A stretch of DNA of 64,000 nt from Planctomycetaceae bacterium. Lineage in GTDB: Bacteria; Planctomycetota; Planctomycetia; Planctomycetales; Planctomycetaceae. The position numbers and the translations under genes are program-made. This document shows positions 3,998-55,359 of this stretch, piece by piece; the first letter of the stretch is position 1, and the number at the start of each line of letters is the position of its first letter. The stretch is from positions 27,300 through 91,299 of the forward strand of contig CANJQC010000005.1 in assembly GCA_947476295.1 (NCBI GenBank), in the 5' to 3' direction. The notes below the pieces were generated by a model that saw nothing but the letters and a program-made list of their open reading frames with translations, ran no database searches and was not told where the DNA came from.

Positions 3998-6900
3998 TTA
4001 CAGACTTAGTGGCGACTGCCAATCGGACTTCAGTTTTGTAAGAGACGCAGTGACAATTCTGGTGCCGCCAACAACAATATCCATTGTTGCCGCAACAATT
4101 GTTTTTCCAATGCAAGTGTGTGGCAGGTTGGCAAAAATCGACTCCAACAGAACGCGATGCTTTAGTGAAACTTCAATCAGAAACCGCGTATTAGATTCTG
4201 AGAATAGGGCCGCAACCCCGTCTGAAGCCACTTCAATCTCGACCCCAACCCCACCTGCAAATGCCATTTCCGCAGCAGCCACAGCCAGTCCGCCTTCGCT
4301 GAGGTCGTGGCATGACAACACCAAGCCTTGTTTGAGAGTTTGATGTAGGGCTCGAAAAATTCTTGGAGCCATGTCTGTGTCAACGGTTGGCACTTTGCCC
4401 CCGGTAAGACAATTGACGAGGTTGTAGTGGGAGCCACCCATTTCATCTTTGGTTTCGCCGATCAGATACAGCAGATTACCGGGACCTTTGAGGTCCATGG
4501 TGACGCAGGTTTCGATGTCATCGACCTGGCCGAGGGCGGTGATGAGAAGCGTGGAGGGGATAGCCACAGTGCGGCGACCCGTCGCCTTAAAGGATTCAGA
4601 CCCTTTCGTCGAAGCTGCAACAGGGTCAGCCCCCTTCAAGTCGGTCTCGTAGCTAAATTCGTTGTTGAGGCTGTCTTTGCCGCTGACGAAGGGTGTGCGA
4701 TAAGCAACAGCGATGTCCTTGCAGGCGACGGCGGCTCGGACGAGGGTGCCGAGGGTCTCGGGACGTTCGGTGTTGCCCCAACAGAAATTGTCGAGGATGG
4801 CGATGCGGTCTGGGTCGGCTCCAACGGCGACGCAATTGCGGACGGCTTCGTCGATGGCGGAGGCGGCCATCCAGTACGGATCAAGGTCCCCAAAGTGCGG
4901 ATTGATGCCGCAGGCGATGACGAGGCCTCGGTTGGATGTCAGGTCGGGACGGACGACGGCGGCGTCAGACGGACCGTCGTTGTTGATGCCGACGAGAGGT
5001 TTGATGACGCTGCCGGCCTGGACCTCGTGGTCATACTGGCGAATGATCCATTCTTTGCTGGCAACGTTGAGGGATCGGAGAATCTTCCTGAGGTCGTCAG
5101 TGTAGTCCGGCTTATTGTCGCGATCACGCTCCGCGTGATGAGCCTTGAAGTTTGCTGCCGAGGATTCAGAGAGCTTTGCCGCAGCGGGCGAGGCGGCGGT
5201 GTTGGAGGTGACAACAGTTGTCGGTTGATGTGAGGTTTCCTCTGAATGCTCCTCACGCGGAGCGTGAGGGCTGCTTTGAATCGCATACACAGCTTCGCGA
5301 ATCACGGGCGGGCGGCCGTCGTGGAGGAAGTGCATGCTGACTTCGCCGACTTTGTGTTCGCCGTATTTTAGAACAAGTTGCTTCGTGCCGGTGAACTTGC
5401 CGATGATCGTGGCTTCGACGCCTTCAGAGGCACACAGTGCTTCGAGCTGAGCCCAATTCGCGGGCGGTACGGACAGGACCATGCGTTCCTGAGCTTCGGA
5501 GATCCAGATCTCGGTGTACGACAGTCCGGCATACTTCAAAGGGGCTCGATCCAGCCACACTTCGGCACCCGTGCCTTCACCCATCTCACCCACAGCACTG
5601 CTGAAGCCGCCGGCGCCACAGTCGGTGATGGCGGAGTACAAATTCAAGTCGCGTGCAGCCAGAATCACATCGGCCACCATCTTTTCGGTAACCGGGTTGC
5701 CGATCTGTACAGACCCACCGCTGATGGATTCACTTTCTTCGGTGAGTTCCACGGACGAAAACGTCGCGCCATGAATTCCGTCACGTCCAGTACGTCCGCC
5801 GACAGCCACGATCAGGTCACCGGGGCTGACGAGTTTGTCACACTTATCGACAGGAATCATGGCCACGTTGCCGCAGTAGACCAGCGGGTTGCCAAGATAA
5901 CGGTCGTCGAAACAGACGGCTCCGTTGACGGTCGGAATGCCCATCCGGTTTCCGTAATCGCGGACTCCGGCCACAACGCCCTGCATGACAGCCAGTGGGT
6001 GCAGCACTCCGGGCGGAAGCTGATCTACGGGATAGTCCGGTCGAGCAAAACAGAACACATCGGTGCTGCAAACCGGTCGAGCCCCCAGACCAGTGCCCAG
6101 CGGATCGCGGATGACTCCGCCGAGCCCCGTATTGGCTCCGCCGTAGGGTTCGATAGCGGACGGATGGTTGTGAGTCTCAACTTTGATGCAGACATTCTGC
6201 TTGTCGTCGAACTTGACGATCCCCGCGTTGTCCTTGAACACGCTGACGCACCAGTCGTCCTTGCCGAGCGATTCGCGAATCTGCACGGTCGCTGCAAAGA
6301 TCGTTTCTTTCAACATGCTGTTGAAGTGCGTATCCCGGACCACTTTGCCTTCGCAGGTTTCGACGTAATGAATACGTCCGCCTAGCGTCTTGTGCGAACA
6401 GTGTTCGCTCCAGGTCTGAGCAACGGTTTCCAGTTCGATGTCAGTGGGGTCTCGCTGTAGTGATCGGAAGTAATCCTGCACCGTCTGCATTTCGGTGATA
6501 CTCAGATACAACTGGCCCTTTTTGCTGAGTTCCCTCAGAGCCGCATCGTCCATCTCGCGAATAGCGACGGTGGTGAGTTTGAATTTGTATTCGCTGCCGA
6601 GCGTCAGGTCTGCAATCTGCAGCGGGCCAGTGATGATGTATTCAATGGCATCGTTAGCGAGAACCTTCTTCGACAGGTGAGCGACTTTGGCCGCGCCCAG
6701 TGCTCCGGTCAGCCAATAACGTCGGCAGGTGGCAACGTTTGTGACGCTGAGGTTCAGTCGCGAGAGAGCCTTCGCGGCGTTTTCAGCGACGCTGTCAGTG
6801 ACGCCGGGGTGGAGAAGCACGTTGAGGAGCGAGGATTGAGGAGCGAGGGCTGAGGAGCGAGTGTCGGGCAGTTCGTGAATGCTGAACTGTTCCGTTACAG

Positions 6901-7090
6901 GATCAACGAGAAGTTGTTCGGCGGCGCGTGTCGCGTCGTCGCGAGTCAGGTCACCCTGAATGAGAAATGTACGGGCTGATTTGACGGTGCTGAGTCCGCT
7001 GATCCCCTGACTATGAGCACTTGCGAGAATTCGTTGACCTTCGTAATCTTTTTCGCTGCCGGTCGGCAGAATTTCGACTTCCCAGAGCAT
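3998..7090 (-). CDS. purL: Phosphoribosylformylglycinamidine synthase with two N-terminal PurS-like regions and no PurQ domain (ORF open to 7141)
   Basis: [78 protein letters not shown]. Confidence 0.93.
5123..5269. repeat. 147-bp inverted-palindrome-flanked insertion inside purL (MITE/REP-like)
   Basis: Left ATCACGCTCCGCGTGAT(GAGC) and right (GCTC)CTCACGCGGAGCGTGAG; the right end is the inverted copy of the left. Length divisible by 3; encodes the linker containing [13 protein letters not shown]. Confidence 0.7.
6822..6863. repeat. 3 x 14-bp tandem repeat TTGAGGAGCGAGGN in the purL linker
   Basis: TTGAGGAGCGAGGA / TTGAGGAGCGAGGG / CTGAGGAGCGAGTG, contiguous; 42 bp keeps the reading frame. 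Confidence 0.85.
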
Positions 7091-7403
7091 GATATCGTGT
7101 GATCCGTGAGAGGAGTTTTTGTTCTCGATTAGCGACGCCACCTCGCCTGTTGGGGTGGTTTATACTATATGCAGCGTCCAATGTTTACCTTCCACGCCGA
7201 CGTCATCGTAATACGAAAATGCTGCAGAATCATTATCTTCGTTGAAATCTGGCAATTGAACTTGGCTGCGTCACTGTTACAGATTCCCGTTTTGTGCGGC
7301 GAATGTGCTGGACCCCTGTTTCCAAAGATCACCAGTCGATTCCATGTGGTAGGTTCTCACAGCCCCCAATTTTTGCACCGTCCAGCAAGCAAGAGCCCTC
7401 AAA

Positions 7404-8129
7404 ATGGACCCAAGTCATCTTCAGGAACTGGTGACACTCGAAGATCATTACTGGTGGCACGTCGCCAAACGCAAGTTGGTTACGCGACTGATGAAGCGTT
7501 ACTGCCCACCGCCCGGGCGACTCGTCGAAGGCGGCATTGGATCGGGTCGCAACCTTGTTGAGTTTTCTGAGCTTGGTTACGACGTCACCGGTTTCGATCT
7601 GATGCCGGAATCCGTGCAGCATGTGCGCAATCGCGGCATCGAAGATGTGCGTATTCACGATCTCGGTCGGCCATGGCCAGTCGATGATTCGTCGCTGCGA
7701 GCTGTTGTGCTGCTGGACGTACTGGAACATGTTGAAGATCCTGTCGCGGTGCTGAGGCACGCCTACACGGCATTGGAAGAAGGAGGAGCCGTGATCGCCA
7801 CTGTGCCGGCTCATCCCTGGCTATACAGTCGCTGGGACGAGCAACTGGGACACTTCCGTCGGTATACAACGCGCGAGTTTCGCCGTCACGCAAACGAAGC
7901 GAGTTTTCGCGTTTCATTCCTAAACTACTGGAATAGTTTTACAATGCCGGCGGCCGTTGCCATGCGGAGCTGGGAGAAATTTTTCCCGAGCCGCACACAA
8001 CCCGACTTCCCAGCCGTATCCTCATTCACCAACCGCGCGTTGCTGACAGCTGCGTCGGCTGAACGATGGTGCCTGACAAACTTCGGGCTTCCAACCGGTC
8101 TTTCTCTGGCAGGAGTTCTGCTGAAATGA
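7404..8129 (+). CDS. Class I SAM-dependent methyltransferase
   Basis: LVEGGIGSGRNLVEFSELGYDVTGFDLMPESVQ; VLLDVLEHVEDPVAVLRHAYTALEEGG. Confidence 0.85.
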   Translation: MDPSHLQELVTLEDHYWWHVAKRKLVTRLMKRYCPPPGRLVEGGIGSGRNLVEFSELGYDVTGFDLMPESVQHVRNRGIEDVRIHDLGRPWPVDDSSLRAVVLLDVLEHVEDPVAVLRHAYTALEEGGAVIATVPAHPWLYSRWDEQLGHFRRYTTREFRRHANEASFRVSFLNYWNSFTMPAAVAMRSWEKFFPSRTQPDFPAVSSFTNRALLTAASAERWCLTNFGLPTGLSLAGVLLK

Positions 8130-10864: not shown

Positions 10865-12100
10865 TCACCGACTGAGATTCTCAAACATGTAGAGGCCGGA
10901 TTTTCCTGGGCACACAACATCGATGTCTCCGTCACCGTCTATGTCAACCGCCGCGATCTGAAGTCCTGTGCCGGCGCTGCCTGTCGGGAAATCTTTCAGA
11001 GCCCAGCGGTCCTTGGCGTCTTTGGGAGCGTTGATCGCAGGGTCGCCGTGGAAGATCGTGTGCCTCATCCATTTTGCTGCGACACGGTCAAATTGATAAT
11101 AGTAGACCACGGATGCATCGGTGTCGCCTGGTTCTACTTCGTGCGCGTAGACTCGTTTGCCCGTAATGAGTTCCTGTTCGCCTTTGCCATCAAGATCGGC
11201 AAAAACCAGTGTGTGGACCTGAGAGAATGTGTCGTCGATATCCAGCCTGGTCCATTCGCGCTTGCCGTCGTTTCCCACGGATTGCTTGAGCCAATGCAAA
11301 CCGAAGCCGTGGCCCATGCCGTACACGATGTCCGCCAACTGATCGCCATCGACGTCGCGACCGTGAATAAAAAACCCGGCTGCTCCCAGCTGGAACTCGG
11401 CATGAAACTGCCATGCGCTGGAAGCAGCGTCCTCGGGCTGTTCATGCCAGCCTTTCGGCGTGATAATGTCCAGCCTTCCGTCACGGTTGATGTCTCCGAC
11501 TCCCACACCATGCCCGGCACCTTCGCTGCCAAGATCATGTTTGGTCCAGACGACGGCAGGCTTCTGTTGCGTCAGCTCATACCAGACAACGACGTTACCC
11601 GTGTTCGGCAGAAAATCGAGTTTCCCGTCGCCGTTGATATCGACAAGTTCGCCGGTCTCCATATTTCCGGGAGTATCAATTTCATGCTCAGTCCACGGTG
11701 CAGTCGCATCGCCACCCGGATTCTCGACCCAGCCAACTCGCCTGCCGAAGTAATTGCAGGTGACGATATCAGGGCGCCCGTCGTCGTTCACATCCAGCGG
11801 CGAATCTGAGAAGTCTTCATAATAGTGCGGATTCGGGCCACTCGCCGGAACATCACGCACCTTGCGCTTCGTCCAGTTCGGAGCTTCATACCACGAATCG
11901 CCGCAGAAGATATCCGTCTTCCCGTCCCCATTGAAGTCAGCCGTTCCACAAGCTTCATACGGCGACTGATCATTGATCGTGTGCATCTTCCAGTTCAGGT
12001 CCGGATGAGATTCCTGAGCAAACGCGGCGGCATCGCCTATCACAATATAACCAATGGAAAGGCAGATGAGCGTGGACGTGCGACCGGATTGAATCAGCAT
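10865..12100 (-). CDS. Secreted FG-GAP/VCBS-repeat protein (ORF open to 12259)
   Basis: Signal-like start MLIQSGRTSTLICLSIGYIV; repeated D-x-DGxxDI motifs (DFNGDGKTDIFCGD, DVNDDGRPDIVTCN, DINRDGRLDIITPKG, DIDGDGDIDVVCPG). Confidence 0.85.
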   Translation of the reverse strand: MLIQSGRTSTLICLSIGYIVIGDAAAFAQESHPDLNWKMHTINDQSPYEACGTADFNGDGKTDIFCGDSWYEAPNWTKRKVRDVPASGPNPHYYEDFSDSPLDVNDDGRPDIVTCNYFGRRVGWVENPGGDATAPWTEHEIDTPGNMETGELVDINGDGKLDFLPNTGNVVVWYELTQQKPAVVWTKHDLGSEGAGHGVGVGDINRDGRLDIITPKGWHEQPEDAASSAWQFHAEFQLGAAGFFIHGRDVDGDQLADIVYGMGHGFGLHWLKQSVGNDGKREWTRLDIDDTFSQVHTLVFADLDGKGEQELITGKRVYAHEVEPGDTDASVVYYYQFDRVAAKWMRHTIFHGDPAINAPKDAKDRWALKDFPTGSAGTGLQIAAVDIDGDGDIDVVCPGKSGLYMFENLSR

Positions 12101-45147: not shown

Positions 45148-45503
45148 GATAACTTCTGGGACCGTTCACGCTACCATGCACATTGGCCGGATGAATCTGT
45201 TTCAAGTCTGCGCGCTGTTGGTGATGCCGAATTATCGACGGTTCGTCTTTTTCAGTTGTCCGCGATGACGAGTTCTCGTCCGTCTGGTGAAGGTGATGTT
45301 GTATGTGCGCGCCTCACAATGCCAGCATATTCGTGCTAGCCGCTATAACAGTTAAAGGTCGACTTTCGCTTTTGACGATAATTGAGGATGGGGGACGTTT
45401 TCGGATGGAGGGGCTTTCGTGGACTCCTGCATCCACGATCGCGTGGTTGATCCATCGATCAAGTTTTGAAGCGACAAATTCCAAAACTGTTTGGGGCAAA
45501 TTT

Positions 45504-47144
45504 ATGATCTCGCCAAGCATCAATTCACGGATGAAGATGCTCTGTGAGTTGGCTATCCAAGGCACAATGGCGGTGACTGAGAAGAGTCTCTTGTGGTGCC
45601 TTGGTGTTGCCTTACTTTTCATGGCCACGGGGTGTAGAACGCCTGGGGAATGGAAGCAAAATGGTTTCAAGGTCGGTCCGAACTACCACCGGCCTGTCGA
45701 ACCTGTGGCGAATGCATGGGTTGATGCGGCAGACCCGCGGCTTGTTTCTCAATCCGCAGACCTCGCTTATTGGTGGACGAATCTCAATGATGCGGTCCTT
45801 AACGAACTCATCCAAAACGCATATCAACAGAATTTGAGCATTCGCGAATCGGCCTTTCGGGTGCTGCAAGCGCGTGCTGAATTGGGAATCGTGCAGGGGA
45901 AATTTTATCCGCAGCAGCAATATTTAGACGGTGGTTTTACGCAGCAGAAATTTAGCAATGCAAACGCCAACAGTGTGTTTCTTCCCAATACATCGTTCAG
46001 CAATTGGCAATATGGATTTGCGTTAGCATGGGAGCTAGATTTTTGGGGTAAGTATCGACGCATGATTGAAGCGGCGGATGCCCACTTGGATGCATCGATT
46101 GAAGATTATGATGCAGTTCTTGTTACCTTGATTGGCGATGTTGCCCAGAATTATGTGCAATTGCGCATCGTCGAGCAGCAGTTAGAATACATTTCGGAGA
46201 ATGTGAAACTGCAAAAAGAAACGGCGGATATTGCCAAAGCACGTTTCGATGGTGGGCAAACCTCGGAATTGGATGTAGACCAAGCACTGAGCGTGTTGGC
46301 TCAGACGGAATCCCAAACACCTGCCCTCGAAATCCAGCGTCGACAGTTGCAGAACAGGATTTGTATCCTGCTTGGAATGCCCGTTCAAGATTTGGTGTCA
46401 TGTTTAGGTCATGCGCCAATCCCATTGACGCGCACGGACATCGTGCTTGGAATCCCTGCGGATTTGTTACGCCGTCGACCGGATGTTCGCCGTGAAGAGC
46501 GGAAAACGGCGATGGAATCGGCACGGATCGGGATGGCCGAAGCAGACCTGTATCCGGCGATCTCTATCACGGGCAGCATGGGATACAGTGCGCAGACATT
46601 CTCCCAGATGTTTGCACGCGACGCATTTGCAGGTTCGGTGGGACCAGGCTTCCGTTGGAATGTCCTCAACTACGGCCGAATCTTAAGCAACATCGAACGA
46701 GTCGATGCTACCTTTGAAGCCCAAGTGGCAAAATATCAACAGACGGTATTGCAAGCTGGTCTCGAGGCCGAAAATGCGATCGTTGAGTTTTTGAAATCGC
46801 AGGAACAAGCTGAAAAACTTGATGAGAGTGTCAAGGCAATGGAGAAATGCGCGGAGATTGCGAGCGTTCAGTACAAAGGAGGCTTAGTTGACTTCAACCG
46901 CGTTTCGCTCATCGAGCAAAACCTAGTTAATCAACAGAATCTCCTCGCGCAAGCTCGCGGAAACACGACGCTTGGTCTGGTAAATCTGTATCGCGCTATG
47001 GGGGGAGGCTGGGAAATTCGATTGAATCAACCCACTGCAACGAGCATCAACACATCGCCGGAACCCATCAGCGTTCCCTTAGAAACTGAATCAAGCGATT
47101 TGGTTCCACCAGCGGTACCACCTCTCGCAGCGAGCAAGGAGTAA
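45504..47144 (+). CDS. RND efflux outer membrane factor (NodT/OprM-like); start may be 45567 (ORF open from 45303)
   Basis: LFMATGCRTPGEWK leader; FKVGPNYHRPVEPVANAW; LIGDVAQNYVQLRIVEQQLEY; LRRRPDVRREERKTAMESARIGMAEADLYPAISITGSMGY. Confidence 0.92.
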   Translation: MISPSINSRMKMLCELAIQGTMAVTEKSLLWCLGVALLFMATGCRTPGEWKQNGFKVGPNYHRPVEPVANAWVDAADPRLVSQSADLAYWWTNLNDAVLNELIQNAYQQNLSIRESAFRVLQARAELGIVQGKFYPQQQYLDGGFTQQKFSNANANSVFLPNTSFSNWQYGFALAWELDFWGKYRRMIEAADAHLDASIEDYDAVLVTLIGDVAQNYVQLRIVEQQLEYISENVKLQKETADIAKARFDGGQTSELDVDQALSVLAQTESQTPALEIQRRQLQNRICILLGMPVQDLVSCLGHAPIPLTRTDIVLGIPADLLRRRPDVRREERKTAMESARIGMAEADLYPAISITGSMGYSAQTFSQMFARDAFAGSVGPGFRWNVLNYGRILSNIERVDATFEAQVAKYQQTVLQAGLEAENAIVEFLKSQEQAEKLDESVKAMEKCAEIASVQYKGGLVDFNRVSLIEQNLVNQQNLLAQARGNTTLGLVNLYRAMGGGWEIRLNQPTATSINTSPEPISVPLETESSDLVPPAVPPLAASKE

Positions 47145-47148
47145 TCCC

Positions 47149-47526
47149 TTGGATCTGAAATTGCAGTTGAATGTGAGGTTACCACGAGGCCTAATGCTGT
47201 TGGTGACGACTTCAGTCTTGATGGCACCAGGCTGCGCTTCGTTACCTCGCCTGTCCCACGGTTTCTTTGCCGCCAGATCACATTCTTGTCACTCGAACGA
47301 GTCAACAAAGTCATCCAACTGCGTGTGCCCAGATCCTTACTGCAAGAAATCTTCGCCGGCAGCACCATGCGATTCTCAGCGGTGCCATGACGCTGATTAT
47401 TGCCGCAAAAAATGCCCCAGAATACCCGAGTGGGCATGCTGTAGTGGCCTTGATGATTATGACTGCAAACCGCTCCCGAGCGTGACTTGCCATCGATGTT
47501 CCACAAATCACTGCCGCATGCCCTAG
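47149..47526 (+). CDS. Small cysteine-rich secreted protein or lipoprotein, uncharacterised
   Basis: TTG start with AAGGAG Shine-Dalgarno (47136-47141) 7 nt upstream; signal-like LPRGLMLLVTTSVLMAPGC; 15 Cys in the translated ORF; stop lies 4 nt from the stop of the convergent RND gene. Confidence 0.65.
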   Translation: MDLKLQLNVRLPRGLMLLVTTSVLMAPGCASLPRLSHGFFAARSHSCHSNESTKSSNCVCPDPYCKKSSPAAPCDSQRCHDADYCRKKCPRIPEWACCSGLDDYDCKPLPSVTCHRCSTNHCRMP

Positions 47527-47530
47527 CGGA

Positions 47531-50500
47531 TCAGGCGATATTCTGCGGTGTCTCCATCTTTTTAAAGCATGTGATCGCGTAGTAGAAGACAGGCGTCAAC
47601 AAGATGCCGAAAAACGTGACGCCAAGCATCCCGCTGAAAACAGCCGTGCCAAGAGTGCGCCGCATTTCGGCGCCGGCACCCTCGGCGATGACGAGGGGAA
47701 CGACACCCAAGATGAAAGCGAAGGATGTCATTAGAATTGGACGCAAACGAAGGCGACATGCATTTACGGTAGCCTCTCGTGGACTCTTTCCAGATTTGCG
47801 TTCTTGCTCCGCGAACTCCACGATCAAGATGGCATTCTTGCTCGCGAGGCCAACCAAGACGATTAAACCAATCTGCGTAAATATATTCACGTCCATGTTG
47901 GCGATCGAAATGCCGATCACGGAGCAGAGGAGGCACATCGGCACCACTAAAATGACAGCTAAGGGCAATGACCAACTTTCGTATTGAGCCGCTAAAACCA
48001 AGAAGACAAAGACCACTGCCAAGGCAAATACATACATGGCCGTATTTCCTGCATCAAGTTGCATATAGGTCAATTCGGTCCAGTCGAACCCCATGGAACG
48101 AGGCAATTGCTCGTTAGCGATTTTTTCCAACAGTTGGATCGCCTCACCACTGCTCGTACCGGGCACAAGGTTGCCAGTCACGGACGCGGCTGAATACATG
48201 TTGTAACGCATCAGCGATTGAGGTCCTGCTTCATCATTGAGATGAATCAAGGTCGCCAACGGGATCATTTCTTTCTTCAGATTTGCAACTTTGAGTTGCA
48301 GGATTTGAGAGACGTTAGCCCGATACTTCGCGTCTGCCATGATATTCACTTGCCATGATCTACCAAATCGATTGAAGTTATTGACGTAATAGGATCCGAG
48401 ATAAATTTGGAGGGTCTGGAACACATCGGAAGGCGAAACCCCCAAGGCCAGGCACTTCTCTCGGTCGATGTCGAGATTGAGCCATGGTGTGTTAGAACGT
48501 ACGCTACCAAACACGCCTTGGAGCCCAGGTGTATTGTTTGCCTCATCGACAATTTTATCCGTCACGCGCTGCAATTCGTCCAATCCCAGATTACCGCGAT
48601 CTTCGACAATCAACTTGAAACCACCTGTTGTTCCCAACCCGTCAATTGGGGGCGCGCCGAAGATGCTCACTTGGGCATCACGAATCTCTGCAAGGCAATC
48701 TTTGCGAATCTTGCTGGCCATGTCTTCTGCCGACAACCCACGACGTTTACTGAACTCCTCGAGCATGATGTACATGGAGCCTAAATTCGACGCATTAGTT
48801 GCAAGCAGCAGCGATTGCCCCGAGACCGATACGGTGTGTGCAACCCCTTCGGTCTTTTTAACAATGGATTCAATGTGGCTTAATATTTCACGAGTTCTGC
48901 CAACCGCAGCTGAGTCTGGCAATTGCACACTGAGCATCAGATAACCTTTGTCTTGATTCGGGACAAAACCGACGGGCGCCTCGGAGAACTCTTTCCATGT
49001 CAGAAGCAGGAGTCCAACATAGAGGGCCAACACCAAAATGGTGGCTCGGAGCGAAAAACCAACGAACTGCGTATACACCCGAGTAGCAAAATCGAAAAAC
49101 ACGTTGAACAATTTGAAGAACCATCCCAAGGTTATATCAAGGATCCAAGTTAGAGGATCGCGTTTTGCCCCCTTTGGCTGCATGAGAATCGCTGCCAAGG
49201 CGGGAGAAAGGGTCAACGAATTGATCGCTGAGATCGCTGTGGAAACCGCGATGGTGATGGCGAATTGCCTAAAAAACTGTCCGGTAATCCCCGAGATGAA
49301 AGCGCATGGAATGAAAACGGAACACAAGACCAGTGCCACCGCGATCACCGGCCCGGTGACTTCATCCATCGCTTTCCTGGCTGCATCGCGCGGAGACAGC
49401 CCGTGATGTAACCATCGTTCCACATTTTCAACAACCACAATGGCATCATCTACGACGATCCCAATGGCCAGTACCAATCCGAAAAGTGAAAGGTTGTTGA
49501 GCGAGAATCCTAAAGCCGACATCACGGAAAACGTGCCGATAATTGCGACCGGGACAGCGACAAGCGGAATGAGGGTTGTTCGCCAGTTTTGCAGGAACAA
49601 CAGCACGACAATCGCCACCAATATGATGGCATCCCGCAGTGTCTTGAATACTTCGCCAATCGACTCTTTAATGAAGGGCGTTGTGTCGTAGACAATTTTG
49701 TATTCAACGCCATCCGGAAATCCCTTTTGCAATTCCTCCATCTTGCGATAAACGCCTTGTGCCGTTTTAAGTGCATTGGAACCTGGCAATTGGTAGATTG
49801 ACATGGCGAGCGACGGTTTACCGTCCAGCGTGCATGTTTGATCGTATTGCTGTGAACCAAGTTCGATTCGGGCAATATCGCGAAGACGAACAACCGCAGC
49901 GGAGGTGGACGAAGACGGGTTCAGTTCATTAGAACTGTTCGCCTTAATAATGATATTTCCAAACTGTTCTGCATCGATCAGACGCCCTAGGGTATTGATG
50001 GTGAGCTGGAACTCTTGCCCCGGGGCAATCGGCTCCATCCCAATTGCTCCAGCCGCGACTTGGATGTTTTGAGTGCTGATCGCATTGACCACGTCGTCCG
50101 TGCTTAGATTCACGGCTGCCAGCCTATCGGGATTAAGCCACGCCCGCATGCTATAGTCGCGTTGGCCAAGGTAAGTCACCGCCGCGACTCCCTCCAATCG
50201 TCCCAACTCATCTTTGATTTGAATCGTGGCATAATTACTCAGGTAAATGTCGTCGTGAGTTCCATTCGCGGAAACGAGGTTGACGATCATCATCGTGCTG
50301 GGCGACATTTTTTTGACGCTGATGCCTTGTCGTTGCACGAGGTCAGGAATAACGGGCTGGGCCAGCGAGACGCGGTTTTGCACGAGGACTTGCGCCATGT
50401 CAGAATCGGTCCCGAGCTTGAACGTGATGGTCAACTGGTAGGCCCCATCATTCGTGCATTTTGAAGACATGTAGAGCATGTTTTCAACGCCACTGACTTG

Positions 50501-50704
50501 CTGCTCGATAGGAGCCGCGACCGTGTCATTCACGGTTTTTGCATTCGCTCCCGGATACAATGCCGTGACCAAAACGGTGGGTGGCGTAACTTCGGGATAT
50601 TGTGCGACAGGCAGCGAAAAGATGGAAACCAATCCAGCCAGCGTGAGCACGATTGAGAGGACTGCCGAAAAAATTGGTCGGTCAATAAAGAAATGAGAAA
50701 TCAT
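47531..50704 (-). CDS. RND efflux permease, HAE1 family (second of tandem pair)
   Basis: FFIDRPIFSAVLSIVLTLAGLVSIFSLPVAQYPEVTPPTV; VLAIGIVVDDAIVVVENVER; GLASKNAILIVEFAEQ. Confidence 0.95.
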   Translation of the reverse strand: MISHFFIDRPIFSAVLSIVLTLAGLVSIFSLPVAQYPEVTPPTVLVTALYPGANAKTVNDTVAAPIEQQVSGVENMLYMSSKCTNDGAYQLTITFKLGTDSDMAQVLVQNRVSLAQPVIPDLVQRQGISVKKMSPSTMMIVNLVSANGTHDDIYLSNYATIQIKDELGRLEGVAAVTYLGQRDYSMRAWLNPDRLAAVNLSTDDVVNAISTQNIQVAAGAIGMEPIAPGQEFQLTINTLGRLIDAEQFGNIIIKANSSNELNPSSSTSAAVVRLRDIARIELGSQQYDQTCTLDGKPSLAMSIYQLPGSNALKTAQGVYRKMEELQKGFPDGVEYKIVYDTTPFIKESIGEVFKTLRDAIILVAIVVLLFLQNWRTTLIPLVAVPVAIIGTFSVMSALGFSLNNLSLFGLVLAIGIVVDDAIVVVENVERWLHHGLSPRDAARKAMDEVTGPVIAVALVLCSVFIPCAFISGITGQFFRQFAITIAVSTAISAINSLTLSPALAAILMQPKGAKRDPLTWILDITLGWFFKLFNVFFDFATRVYTQFVGFSLRATILVLALYVGLLLLTWKEFSEAPVGFVPNQDKGYLMLSVQLPDSAAVGRTREILSHIESIVKKTEGVAHTVSVSGQSLLLATNASNLGSMYIMLEEFSKRRGLSAEDMASKIRKDCLAEIRDAQVSIFGAPPIDGLGTTGGFKLIVEDRGNLGLDELQRVTDKIVDEANNTPGLQGVFGSVRSNTPWLNLDIDREKCLALGVSPSDVFQTLQIYLGSYYVNNFNRFGRSWQVNIMADAKYRANVSQILQLKVANLKKEMIPLATLIHLNDEAGPQSLMRYNMYSAASVTGNLVPGTSSGEAIQLLEKIANEQLPRSMGFDWTELTYMQLDAGNTAMYVFALAVVFVFLVLAAQYESWSLPLAVILVVPMCLLCSVIGISIANMDVNIFTQIGLIVLVGLASKNAILIVEFAEQERKSGKSPREATVNACRLRLRPILMTSFAFILGVVPLVIAEGAGAEMRRTLGTAVFSGMLGVTFFGILLTPVFYYAITCFKKMETPQNIA

Positions 50705-53700
50705 GCGTGACTCTCTCCTGCTTGCGCCAGCGTAGATTTCATGTTGCTTTTGCGTTTACGACTGCTGACGAAGGCAGCGATGGTGATCCCTAATGCGAAA
50801 CCGACCAAGAGCGCCCAACGGGGGTGGTTAAACCCAGCCTTATGGGAAAGCCACCCACCGGTTAAGCCTACCACTCCGCCAACAGCAGTCGAGATTAGAT
50901 AATGCACATTTTTCAGCTTGAAGAACGAAAATTCACTAATCCGGACGATCGTGTAAAAGAATACAGGGGTCAAAAAGATTCCGAATAACGTGACCCCAAT
51001 CATGCCACTAAAGACAGCAGTACCGAGTGACCAACGCATTTCTGCTCCGGCCCCGGAGGCGATCACGAGCGGTACAACTCCGAGGATAAACGCTAAAGAT
51101 GTCATAAGAATTGGCCGTAAACGTAAGCGGCAAGCTTCAATGGTCGCCACCCGGACATCTTGGCCCGATTCGTGCAACATTTTGGCAAACTCAATAATTA
51201 AAATTGCATTCTTACAGGCGAGCCCGACCAAAACTACAAAACCAATTTGGACAAAAATGTCCATTGGTAACTTGCGGATGAAGACTCCAACCAAGGCGCA
51301 CAACAAGCACATCGGTACGACCAGAATGACGGCAAACGGCAGGGACCAACTTTCATATTGTGCTGCCAACACCAAAAACACAAAGACAACCGCAGCGCCA
51401 AAAACAAACATCGCCGTGTTACCAGCCTTGATTTGCATAAACGTCAAATCGGTCCACTCGGTACTCATGGTGGCAGGCAAAATTGCCTTCGCCTCACTTT
51501 CCATGAGCTCAATCGCTTGTCCCGAGCTCACCGGAGGTAGCGCACCACCCATGATTGCAGCGGCAGGATAAAGGTTGTACCTCGTGATTAAGACCGGACC
51601 ACCATCGTCATGCAATTGGATGAGTGATCCTAGGGGCACCATATCCCCGAACTTATTCCGGATAAACAACTGGTTTAGATCTTCGTTGCGGTCACGGAAA
51701 ACTCCATCCGCCTGAATGTTGACCTGCCAACAGCGGCCGAACAGATTAAAGTTATTCACATAATAGGAACCGAGGAAAATTTGCAGTGTTTGGTTAACAT
51801 CGTTCACGGACACCCCAAGCGACTCGGCTTTCACGCGGTCGACGTCCATCCTCAACTGGGGTGTATTCGCCCGAAACGTACTGGGCATGATGATCATGTG
51901 CGGCTTTTTGGCACTCGACTCCACCAATTCATCCGTCGTCGTCTGCAACTCGGTAAAGCTCGATGAACCGCGGTCCTCGACCATTAATTTAAAGCCGCCA
52001 CCTCGTCCGATGCCAGGAACGGGAGGTGCACCATAAACGCCAACACGGGCATCTCGCATTTCGCGGGCAAACTCCTTACGGAGTTTCAGCATGATCTCAT
52101 TGCCAGACAACTCTTTGGTACGGCGTTCGCCAAATGGCTTCAAGATGACGAAGATCGATCCAAAGTTGGAGCTATTGCTTTGCAACATAACGGATTGGCC
52201 GGCGATCTCCATGGTATGATCGACACCCGGTGTATCTCTGCAAATCTTACCTAACCGTTTCATTACTTCCGATGTTCGTTGCACTGACCCCGAGTCCGGG
52301 ATCTGAGCATCGACGAGCAACCAGCCTTGATCTTGCTGTGGAATAAAACCAATCGGATAGAAACTGAACAACCAGCCCGTCAGGCCTAAAAGTCCAGCAT
52401 ACAGCACCAGCACTAGCACACTGAGCCGGATCAATACACGCACGGTCGTTGCATAGAGATTTCCCGTGATTTCAAATGCTGAGTTAAACAAGCGGAAGAA
52501 CCAACCCAATGCGGAATCGATAAATCGAGTGAGGAGATCTCGTTTGGCATGATGCGGTCGCAACAACAAGACGGCTAATGCGGGGCTTAATGTGAGTGAG
52601 TTGATGGCCGAGAGAACAGTGGACACCGCGATCGTGACCGCAAATTGGCGGAAAAATTGTCCCGTGATTCCGGTGATAAATGCGCACGGGAGAAACACGG
52701 CACATAACACCAATGCGACGGCGATGACCGGGCCGGTTACTTCTGTCATCGCTTTGCGTGCAGCATCCCGCGAGCTCATCCCTTCCAGCAATAATCGTTC
52801 GACGTTTTCCACCACCACGATCGCATCGTCGACGACAATTCCAATTGCCAAAACCAAGCCGAAGAGGGAAATATTGTTCAGGCTAAAGCCCAACATCGTC
52901 ATGAAGCCAAACGTGCCCACAATAGCTACTGGGACCGCAATCAGGGGAATCAGCGCGGCTCGCCAATTTTGCAGGAAAGCCATGACAACGATGGCTACCA
53001 AAAAGACGGCCTCGAACAATGTCTTTACCACATCCCTAACCGACTCTTCCACAAACGGTGTTGTGTCATAGTAGATCGCATAATCGAGGTCATCGGGGAA
53101 ACGTTCCTGAAGTATCTCCATCTTGCGCCGCACGGCATTAGCAACATCGAGCGCATTGGTGCCCGGCAATTGAAAAACTGCTAAGCCTACGGATGGCATC
53201 CCATCCAACGTGCAGTTCTGGCTATAGTTCTGAGCGCCCAACTCGACTCTTGCGATATCTCGTAAATAAACGTACTTCGGTACATCGCTACCCGATGGAT
53301 CCGTTTCCGCTTTGATGATGATAGCGCCGAATTCGTCTGGATGTGCCAATCGCCCTTCCGTATCGATCGGCAATTCAAAATCCGCAACTCCTCCCGGTTG
53401 CTGTCCGGTCTGACCAACAATGGCAGCAACGCTCTGGTTTTTTACGGCGTTGGCGACGTCGCCGGTGGAAATGTTCCTTGTCATCATTCGTTGCGGGTCA
53501 AGCCAAACGCGGATGCTGTAGTCCCGTTGGCCAAAGTAGACGATATCCGCAACACCCGGCACGCGAAACAATTCGTCTTTCACATTGATGGTCGCGTAGT
53601 TGCTCAAGTCAACGTTATCACGTGTTCCTTGGGGGCTATAAAAGTTAACCACTAACAAAATGTTGGGCGACTTTTTCTTAATAGTCAGCCCCTGCTTTTG

Positions 53701-54069
53701 CACAGAATCCGGCAGCTGCGGCATCGCGAGCGAAACGCGGTTTTGCAACATGACCAATGCTGTATTCAGGTCGGTTCCTAAGTCAAACGTGATGGTCAGG
53801 TTATACGAGCCATCATTTCCGCTGTTAGAAGACATGTACAGCATGCCTTCAACGCCATTGACCTGCTGTTCAATCGGGGCTGCAATGGTGTCGGCAACAA
53901 CCTTAGCACTGGCACCCGGGTAGACGCAAGAGACCTGCACCGTAGGAGGAGCAATCGGCGGGTACTGCGAGATAGGAAGGCCGAACAGCGCGATTCCGCC
54001 CGCTAAGGTTACGAAAATTGAAATGACGGCAGCAAATATCGGGCGGTCGATGAAAAAATGAGAAATCAC
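50701..54069 (-). CDS. RND efflux permease, HAE1 family (first of tandem pair), with extra C-terminal hydrophobic extension
   Basis: FFIDRPIFAAVISIFVTLAGGIALFGLPISQYPPIAPPTVQVSCVYPGASA; GIVVDDAIVVVENVER; GLACKNAILIIEFAKM; 4-nt overlap with the next gene. Confidence 0.95.
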   Translation of the reverse strand: MISHFFIDRPIFAAVISIFVTLAGGIALFGLPISQYPPIAPPTVQVSCVYPGASAKVVADTIAAPIEQQVNGVEGMLYMSSNSGNDGSYNLTITFDLGTDLNTALVMLQNRVSLAMPQLPDSVQKQGLTIKKKSPNILLVVNFYSPQGTRDNVDLSNYATINVKDELFRVPGVADIVYFGQRDYSIRVWLDPQRMMTRNISTGDVANAVKNQSVAAIVGQTGQQPGGVADFELPIDTEGRLAHPDEFGAIIIKAETDPSGSDVPKYVYLRDIARVELGAQNYSQNCTLDGMPSVGLAVFQLPGTNALDVANAVRRKMEILQERFPDDLDYAIYYDTTPFVEESVRDVVKTLFEAVFLVAIVVMAFLQNWRAALIPLIAVPVAIVGTFGFMTMLGFSLNNISLFGLVLAIGIVVDDAIVVVENVERLLLEGMSSRDAARKAMTEVTGPVIAVALVLCAVFLPCAFITGITGQFFRQFAVTIAVSTVLSAINSLTLSPALAVLLLRPHHAKRDLLTRFIDSALGWFFRLFNSAFEITGNLYATTVRVLIRLSVLVLVLYAGLLGLTGWLFSFYPIGFIPQQDQGWLLVDAQIPDSGSVQRTSEVMKRLGKICRDTPGVDHTMEIAGQSVMLQSNSSNFGSIFVILKPFGERRTKELSGNEIMLKLRKEFAREMRDARVGVYGAPPVPGIGRGGGFKLMVEDRGSSSFTELQTTTDELVESSAKKPHMIIMPSTFRANTPQLRMDVDRVKAESLGVSVNDVNQTLQIFLGSYYVNNFNLFGRCWQVNIQADGVFRDRNEDLNQLFIRNKFGDMVPLGSLIQLHDDGGPVLITRYNLYPAAAIMGGALPPVSSGQAIELMESEAKAILPATMSTEWTDLTFMQIKAGNTAMFVFGAAVVFVFLVLAAQYESWSLPFAVILVVPMCLLCALVGVFIRKLPMDIFVQIGFVVLVGLACKNAILIIEFAKMLHESGQDVRVATIEACRLRLRPILMTSLAFILGVVPLVIASGAGAEMRWSLGTAVFSGMIGVTLFGIFLTPVFFYTIVRISEFSFFKLKNVHYLISTAVGGVVGLTGGWLSHKAGFNHPRWALLVGFALGITIAAFVSSRKRKSNMKSTLAQAGESHA

Positions 54070-54075
54070 TGACGG

Positions 54076-55359
54076 TTACCTTAAACCTGCTGACTCGACC
54101 GATTTTGGAACAGTAACCCCATCGTTCGGTGGTTCCCCTTTGATCATTGGTTTTTCTTCAGTCTTGACTTGCGATTTTGGCTTTACGAATTGCAACCCGC
54201 TCACAATCACCAAATCCTGTTCAGTCAAACCTGATTCAATAACCCGCAATCCATCGTCTTGAAGGGGGCCAACTGTTACGGCTACCGAGTTGACGGTGTT
54301 TTTGTCATCGACAACCATCACAAATTTCTGTCCTTGGTCTGTCCCTAACGCAGCTTCGCGGACGAGCATTTTTTTACTGGGTTTCCGGACGGGCAATTGT
54401 ACCTTAACGAACATTCCTGGCCGGAGCAGTCGTCTGCCTGATTGTTCATTTTGAGGGTTTGCGAAACTCCCTCGTAAAGTCAGAGTCCCCGTTGAAGAAC
54501 TCACCACGTTGTTCACGAAATCAATGTATCCTTCGTGGGGATAGTCGATCTCATCCCCCAACGCCATTTTTACGGGGAAAGTAGTTGGGGTTTTTAGATC
54601 GACATGCTTCTCCATCAGCCGCCGACCGACCTTCAGGAGAGTTTGTTCGTCAACATCGAAATAAGCATAGATTGGGTCCTGAGATACGATGGTTGTCAGC
54701 GTCGTCGTGTCCGCATTCACTAAGTTTCCAATCGTGTAGCTATACCGGCCTACTTGTCCGTCGATCGCAGCGGTCACCTTAGTGAAATTTAGGTTGATCT
54801 GATACACGTCCACGTTCGCCTCGGAAGCTTTCACCGCGGCATCAGCCTCATCAACTGCCGCTTGATACTTGTCAAGATCTTGCTTCGAAATTGCTCCGGA
54901 GTTCACTTTCGAAATCCCCAGTGCGCGATCGTTATCGGCTTGAGCCAGTTTCAACTTTGCTTGATTCAAAGCCAAGTCTGATTGCGCTTTTTTCAGTTGC
55001 GAAGTATATGGTTCTTCATCGATTTGAAAGAGTAAAGCTCCTTGCTTGACTACATCTCCTTCCTTGAAAGGCATTTCCTTTAAGTAACCCGTGACGCGAG
55101 GACGAACTTCGACGGAGAATGGTGCGGCTGTGCGTCCAGTGAAGTACTCGTACTCAGTGACATCCCGACTCACAGGATGACTGACAGTCACGGTTGGGAT
55201 TGCCGGCGGCTCTAGCTTCAACTGCTCGCGCTTGCACCCACCAAATCCAAGCATGATCAGCAAAGAAAAACGAACCAAAGACTGTCGAGTCAAAAGGAAT
55301 CCTCCCACGAAACCGCCTACGACTATGTCGGGATGGCCCTCAGTCGACGCAAACGCCAA
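54076..55359 (-). CDS. RND efflux periplasmic adaptor (membrane fusion) lipoprotein
   Basis: LLIMLGFGGCKRE lipobox-like; FTGRTAAPFSVEVRPRVTGYLKEMPFKEGDVVKQGALLFQIDEEPY. Confidence 0.93.
   Translation of the reverse strand: MAFASTEGHPDIVVGGFVGGFLLTRQSLVRFSLLIMLGFGGCKREQLKLEPPAIPTVTVSHPVSRDVTEYEYFTGRTAAPFSVEVRPRVTGYLKEMPFKEGDVVKQGALLFQIDEEPYTSQLKKAQSDLALNQAKLKLAQADNDRALGISKVNSGAISKQDLDKYQAAVDEADAAVKASEANVDVYQINLNFTKVTAAIDGQVGRYSYTIGNLVNADTTTLTTIVSQDPIYAYFDVDEQTLLKVGRRLMEKHVDLKTPTTFPVKMALGDEIDYPHEGYIDFVNNVVSSSTGTLTLRGSFANPQNEQSGRRLLRPGMFVKVQLPVRKPSKKMLVREAALGTDQGQKFVMVVDDKNTVNSVAVTVGPLQDDGLRVIESGLTEQDLVIVSGLQFVKPKSQVKTEEKPMIKGEPPNDGVTVPKSVESAGLR

Follow-up and report, generated by a model that had tools for sequence, protein, structure and literature searches.

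DDYC-module proteins as candidate accessories of an outer membrane factor lineage in planctomycetes

What might a small cysteine-rich protein do when its gene stands between two halves of a tripartite efflux pump locus? This question is raised by a 64,000-nucleotide stretch of DNA from a Planctomycetaceae bacterium (contig CANJQC010000005.1), to which we refer as the window. Directly upstream of the small gene lies the gene for an outer membrane factor (OMF) of the NodT type (45303..47144, forward strand; Pfam OEP, 4.7e-46; TIGR01845, 315 bits against a cutoff of 210). The ATG listed for this 613-aa open reading frame probably lies too far upstream, the true start being the one ahead of the lipobox ATGC (...LLFMATG, then Cys). 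Facing these genes on the reverse strand are a convergent RND permease gene (47531..50704), a second RND permease gene in tandem (50701..54069) and a gene for a periplasmic adaptor (54076..55359; RND_mfp, TIGR01730, 229 bits against a cutoff of 95; best model MexE). The two permease genes share 4 nt (50701-50704). Both permeases pass the HAE1 model NF000282 (1347 and 1326 bits, cutoff 1250), and with just 340 and 319 bits both fall far below the cutoff of 701 of the CusA/CzcA model TIGR00914. Judged by these models, the window locus encodes a pump of the HAE1 multidrug type.

A genuine small gene behind the OMF gene

The small gene (47149..47526, forward strand) starts with a TTG codon and encodes a predicted exported protein of 125 residues with three copies of the module described below. 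The protein contains 15 cysteines (12%), some in CxC and CC spacings, and several histidines. A ribosome-binding site, AAGGAG (47136..47141, forward strand), is situated within the 3' end of the OMF gene, 7 nt before the TTG. The OMF stop codon (47142-47144) is separated from the small gene by 4 nt, and another 4 nt separate the stop of the small gene from that of the convergent RND gene. The TTG start, the ribosome-binding site, the 15 cysteines and the tight packing had been described in an earlier reading of the sequence alone (the sequence-only reading) and are confirmed here. The same reading had noted a signal-like N-terminus ending in MAPGC. By eye, we recognize a hydrophobic core followed by VLMAPG and Cys29, which resembles a lipobox and would make residues 1-28 the signal peptide (47149..47232, forward strand). 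Since the four closest relatives retain the GC pair (VSGC, MMGC, TSGC and TSGC), the window protein likely carries a lipoprotein signal.

The small gene is genuine and under purifying selection. A 90% identical orthologue from the same genus (Planctomycetota isolate ZH-3NOV15-plancto2; L004/L005) keeps the reading frame intact, so that we can eliminate a chance open reading frame as its origin. Comparison of the two sequences by the Nei-Gojobori method gives a dN/dS of 0.33 in the frame of the small gene versus 0.57-1.96 in the other five frames. When the same substitutions were placed at random, a ratio as low was obtained in 28 of 2000 trials. Codons 73-125 differ by two synonymous changes and no amino-acid change; codons 1-72 contain 12 changed residues, and the N-terminal half is thus the fast-evolving part. 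An antisense open reading frame (47027-47506) was rejected as coding, given the dN/dS of 0.57-1.96 in the antisense frames.

The region around the orthologue (QWQG01000087.1, L004) shows a peculiarity of its own. Of RND permease 1, just the part from residue 657 onward is present (6386-7588, reverse strand), and different genes follow beyond that point. At the contig end there is another partial copy of the C-terminus of this permease (11554-11934, reverse strand). This permease gene may be broken or rearranged, or the assembly may be in error. The OMF gene and the small gene are both intact.

A family defined by a short module

Alignments and motif spacing delimit three modules in the window protein, all encoded on the forward strand: residues 60-74 (CPDPYCKKSSPAAPC, 47326..47370), residues 79-93 (CHDADYCRKKCPRIP, 47383..47427) and residues 98-114 (CSGLDDYDCKPLPSVTC, 47440..47490). 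They share the skeleton Y-x-x-K-x-x-P (Y64/K67/P70, Y84/K87/P90 and Y104/K107/P110), which recurs at intervals of 20 and 20 residues. A 36% identical relative from another genus (L007) presents the same layout of an OMF gene, a small Cys-rich gene and a convergent RND gene. A profile made from three members (A1) led to many further members across the taxonomic family and class of the window, and the distance from module to module throughout is 18-22 residues, mostly 19 or 20. As read from these alignments, the core of this unnamed family consists of modules about 20 residues long, either one or three per protein, with the consensus C-x-D-D-Y-C-x-K-P-x-P. We refer to it as the DDYC family.

Cysteine is not the most constant residue of the module. 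Summed over the three repeats of 41 three-module members (123 modules), the tyrosine is present in 121, the lysine at +3 in 117 and the proline at +6 in 111, whereas the best-conserved cysteine (+1) is found in 107. Cys-poor members such as L043 and L100 retain their place and the skeleton, which is still recognizable in the three modules of L100. Eight members from two other families, f2 and f3, have PDDYCRKPLP as their sole module, preceded by a GGW...WW segment, and contain only 4-8 cysteines. Since such single-module and Cys-poor members exist, the family is defined by its module and not by its cysteine content. The sequence-only reading, which took Cys richness as the hallmark, was right about the 15 cysteines of the window protein, but Y-x-x-K-x-x-P is the steadier mark. 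In the single-module members (L060, L062, L064 and L067-L071), the segment that precedes PDDYCRKPLP is conserved in a GGxxPxGxxLxxWW-like form, and their genes lie directly behind OMF genes wherever the contig permits a check.

How widespread is this family? A census of 388 genomes from the class of the window, based on a DNA pattern for D-Y-C-x-K-P-x-P and on no OMF information, gave matches in 44 genomes. On inspection, 39 of these are genuine members from 13 taxonomic families, and five are chance matches in unrelated short frames. Since the pattern misses divergent members, including that of the window itself, the resulting figure of 10% of genomes should be read as a minimum. A phylum-wide draw with the same pattern returned four matches (L052-L055); all four are chance matches on inspection, so the sample contains no true pattern match outside the class. 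A phylum search with profile A2, in which 11 of about 40-190 candidates per genome were scored, yielded two genomes; its absences were not used, and the census took its place. Beyond the phylum, the search covered a plasmid collection, with no match to the family, and one close-relative scan of genome contigs. In our searches, the family has so far appeared in one planctomycete class only.

As far as Pfam, NCBIfam, PDB and literature searches reach, the family has apparently never been named, in agreement with the earlier statement that no named family matches. Pfam gave no hit for the window protein and no meaningful match for the 49 members scanned, and NCBIfam none for 26. The only hits, to DUF4543 (0.033, three single-module members) and to Dickkopf_N (0.0014, one of 41 three-module members), were weak and were taken as compositional. 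Profile searches of the PDB matched no solved chain; profile A5 found none at E <= 0.1 in a copy that possibly did not include the YbjP entries 9V52 and 9V53. AlphaFold2 returned no confident fold and almost no regular structure for the window protein (pLDDT 56) and for a canonical member (pLDDT 59). Neither the string DDYCRKP nor a description of the family was found in the literature within scope, which excluded most subscription journals.

Linkage to the OMF gene

The constant neighbour of the small gene is the upstream OMF gene and not the RND pump in itself. We collected 53 members, some of them with a window-seeded profile, and they represent at least 13 families of the class. Of these members, 49 have a NodT-type OMF gene directly upstream on the same strand. 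The gaps between OMF stop and small-gene start range from -17 to +238 nt, with several overlaps of -4 or -1. By these distances, the small gene is close enough to the OMF gene for co-transcription and, in many loci, for translational coupling. Two of the four exceptions (L059 and L067) are located at contig ends, and two (L088 and L091/L027) are true orphans. Restricting the count to census members places the OMF gene upstream in 35 of 37 testable cases versus 0 of 5 chance matches. RND matches of at least 47% identity within reach are all convergent, as in the window; L097 has one weak RND match (27%), which is co-directional, and a co-directional adaptor gene follows at three loci. What had been proposed from the sequence was a Cys-rich exported partner of an RND pump. 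The link to RND/OMF loci holds, but the RND pump is not the constant neighbour. Homologues next to NodT-type OMF genes and selection on the coding frame, on which that proposal had been staked, were both found.

The orphans (L088, 2857-3252, genome G244; L091, 3125-3667, genome G144) contain three modules and have no OMF gene within about 3 kb. Possibly they have taken on a different role, or their genes have been relocated.

The reverse search, with the window OMF as a query in 35 genomes, identified 16 OMF places distributed over 13 genomes. Of the 12 testable places with at least 40% identity, 6 have the partner (G000, G289, G213, G113, G256 and G286) and 6 do not; three places at 35-37% are also without it. 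In a tree of OMFs, 41 partner-bearing and 6 partnerless proteins form one group with 100/100 support, and the three more distant OMFs at 35-37%, none with a partner, fall outside this group. The partner label requires four changes along the tree, whereas shuffled labels required 8.5 on average and none of 500 shuffles reached a number as low; its distribution is therefore clustered. On the other hand, the partner is not obligatory, since 6 of the 47 OMFs of the group lack it. Outside its genus, the window OMF has its nearest kin in a different family (f5), and these OMFs are accompanied by the partner as well. The OMF gene and the small gene thus seem to travel as a unit. The similarities of partners and OMFs show a weak, non-random correlation (Mantel r 0.30, 0 of 500). 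Linked inheritance could account for part of the adjacency and of the agreement with the tree.

Possible roles of the DDYC protein

Because the family almost always sits directly behind an OMF gene, we surmise that its members are probably accessory parts of the OMF channel that have been overlooked. With a probability of roughly 0.55, gene order and sequence point to an exported accessory of one planctomycete OMF lineage that binds or stabilizes the OMF trimer. The protein would be exported as a lipoprotein in the subclade of the window, and with ordinary signal cleavage in most others, and would then bind the periplasmic part of the trimer. Compact and probably disulfide-locked modules may touch the OMF protomers or the grooves between them. 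In this position, the bound protein could keep the channel fixed in the envelope or its outer membrane, where the channel would be able to dock with the adaptor and the HAE1 pump of the facing operon. Binding, disulfide state and an effect on efflux are what we infer for this protein. A bolder version of the same idea sees a fourth pump component: a disulfide-locked clamp with a new small fold, in which three repeats, or three copies of a single-module protein, match the three-fold symmetry of the trimer. Such a clamp would establish a new class of OMF partners. We think this version doubtful.

Other roles have to be weighed against an OMF accessory. Exported Cys- and Pro-rich proteins confined, in the searches made, to one planctomycete class could also form disulfides that tether the OMF to a Cys-rich proteinaceous cell wall, in the manner in which YTV-domain proteins are believed to assemble it. 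Cys-rich proteins with YTV domains do occur in planctomycete cell walls (PMC8567305). Exported, Cys-rich and planctomycete-restricted, they are the closest precedent by composition; the DDYC proteins differ from them in being small and genetically tied to OMF genes. Pfam contains a YTV model, yet none of the 49 members scanned had a meaningful match to this or any other Pfam model. Furthermore, single-module members with 4-8 cysteines would be poor cross-linkers, and we consider a tether unlikely. The abundance of cysteine, its CxC and CC spacings, the several histidines and a Cys after Tyr that is conserved in most modules may suggest a metal-binding or redox accessory of the pump in the periplasm, such as a metallochaperone, buffer or sensor. 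This role is rather unlikely, considering that both permeases are of the HAE1 multidrug and not the CusA/CzcA type, that cysteine is less constant than Tyr, Lys and Pro, and that Cys-poor members keep place and skeleton. The emphasis on metals in the sequence-only reading is not sustained for these reasons.

Specific coupling to the OMF gene, combined with a variable arrangement of RND and adaptor genes, is also consistent with a transient helper in folding, lipidation or targeting of the OMF that stays outside the finished pump. Pfam, NCBIfam and AlphaFold2 models of two members revealed no known chaperone fold or motif, which makes such an assembly factor improbable. Finally, the TTG start and the fast-evolving N-terminal half might be taken as signs of a chance frame or a hitch-hiking relic. 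This explanation is hardly credible in view of the dN/dS of 0.33, the fully conserved C-terminal 53 residues and a regular module spacing in a family that spans at least 13 taxonomic families; the homologues refute it.

OMF-bound accessory proteins have been recognized only recently. If the DDYC protein is indeed an OMF accessory, a whole bacterial class appears to carry its own unrelated, lineage-specific version, and the family would provide a handle on how pumps fit the unusual planctomycete envelope. The module count of one or three offers a simple symmetry hypothesis that is directly testable.

The unnamed protein family is new; accessory proteins of tripartite pumps are an already known kind. 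AcrZ, a small helical inner-membrane peptide, is a tripartite-pump accessory that acts on the RND permease; the DDYC protein, in contrast, bears a predicted export signal, and its link is to the OMF. CusF, the periplasmic metallochaperone of Cus pumps and a partner of heavy-metal RND proteins, is comparable in its small size, in the periplasmic location that we predict for the DDYC protein, and in having its gene next to RND and OMF genes, but its sequence is different, and a heavy-metal RND is absent from the window locus. In E. coli, the outer-membrane lipoprotein YbjP binds the equatorial domain of TolC in a 3:3 ratio within endogenous AcrAB-TolC; its globular domain contains one disulfide, Cys36-Cys144 (PMC13095208). 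YbjP is a small exported lipoprotein, as the proteins of the window subclade appear to be, and stabilization by disulfides and a seat on the OMF of an HAE1-type tripartite pump would be further points in common. It differs from the DDYC family, which consists of repeats of a Cys-rich module, in its globular build with a single disulfide. Since no sequence relation was found in the PDB profile searches, YbjP serves as a works-like analogue only. TolC has no lipobox, in contrast to most planctomycete OMFs that we examined; because these carry their own, they do not need the anchoring that has been proposed as the task of YbjP, which counts against an accessory of this kind. In these OMFs, about 13-16 residues connect the lipid Cys to a VGPxY motif. 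Two of the 35-37% identical OMF relatives (L111 and L112) do not have this stretch before VGPxY, which is seen in the OMFs of the partner clade.
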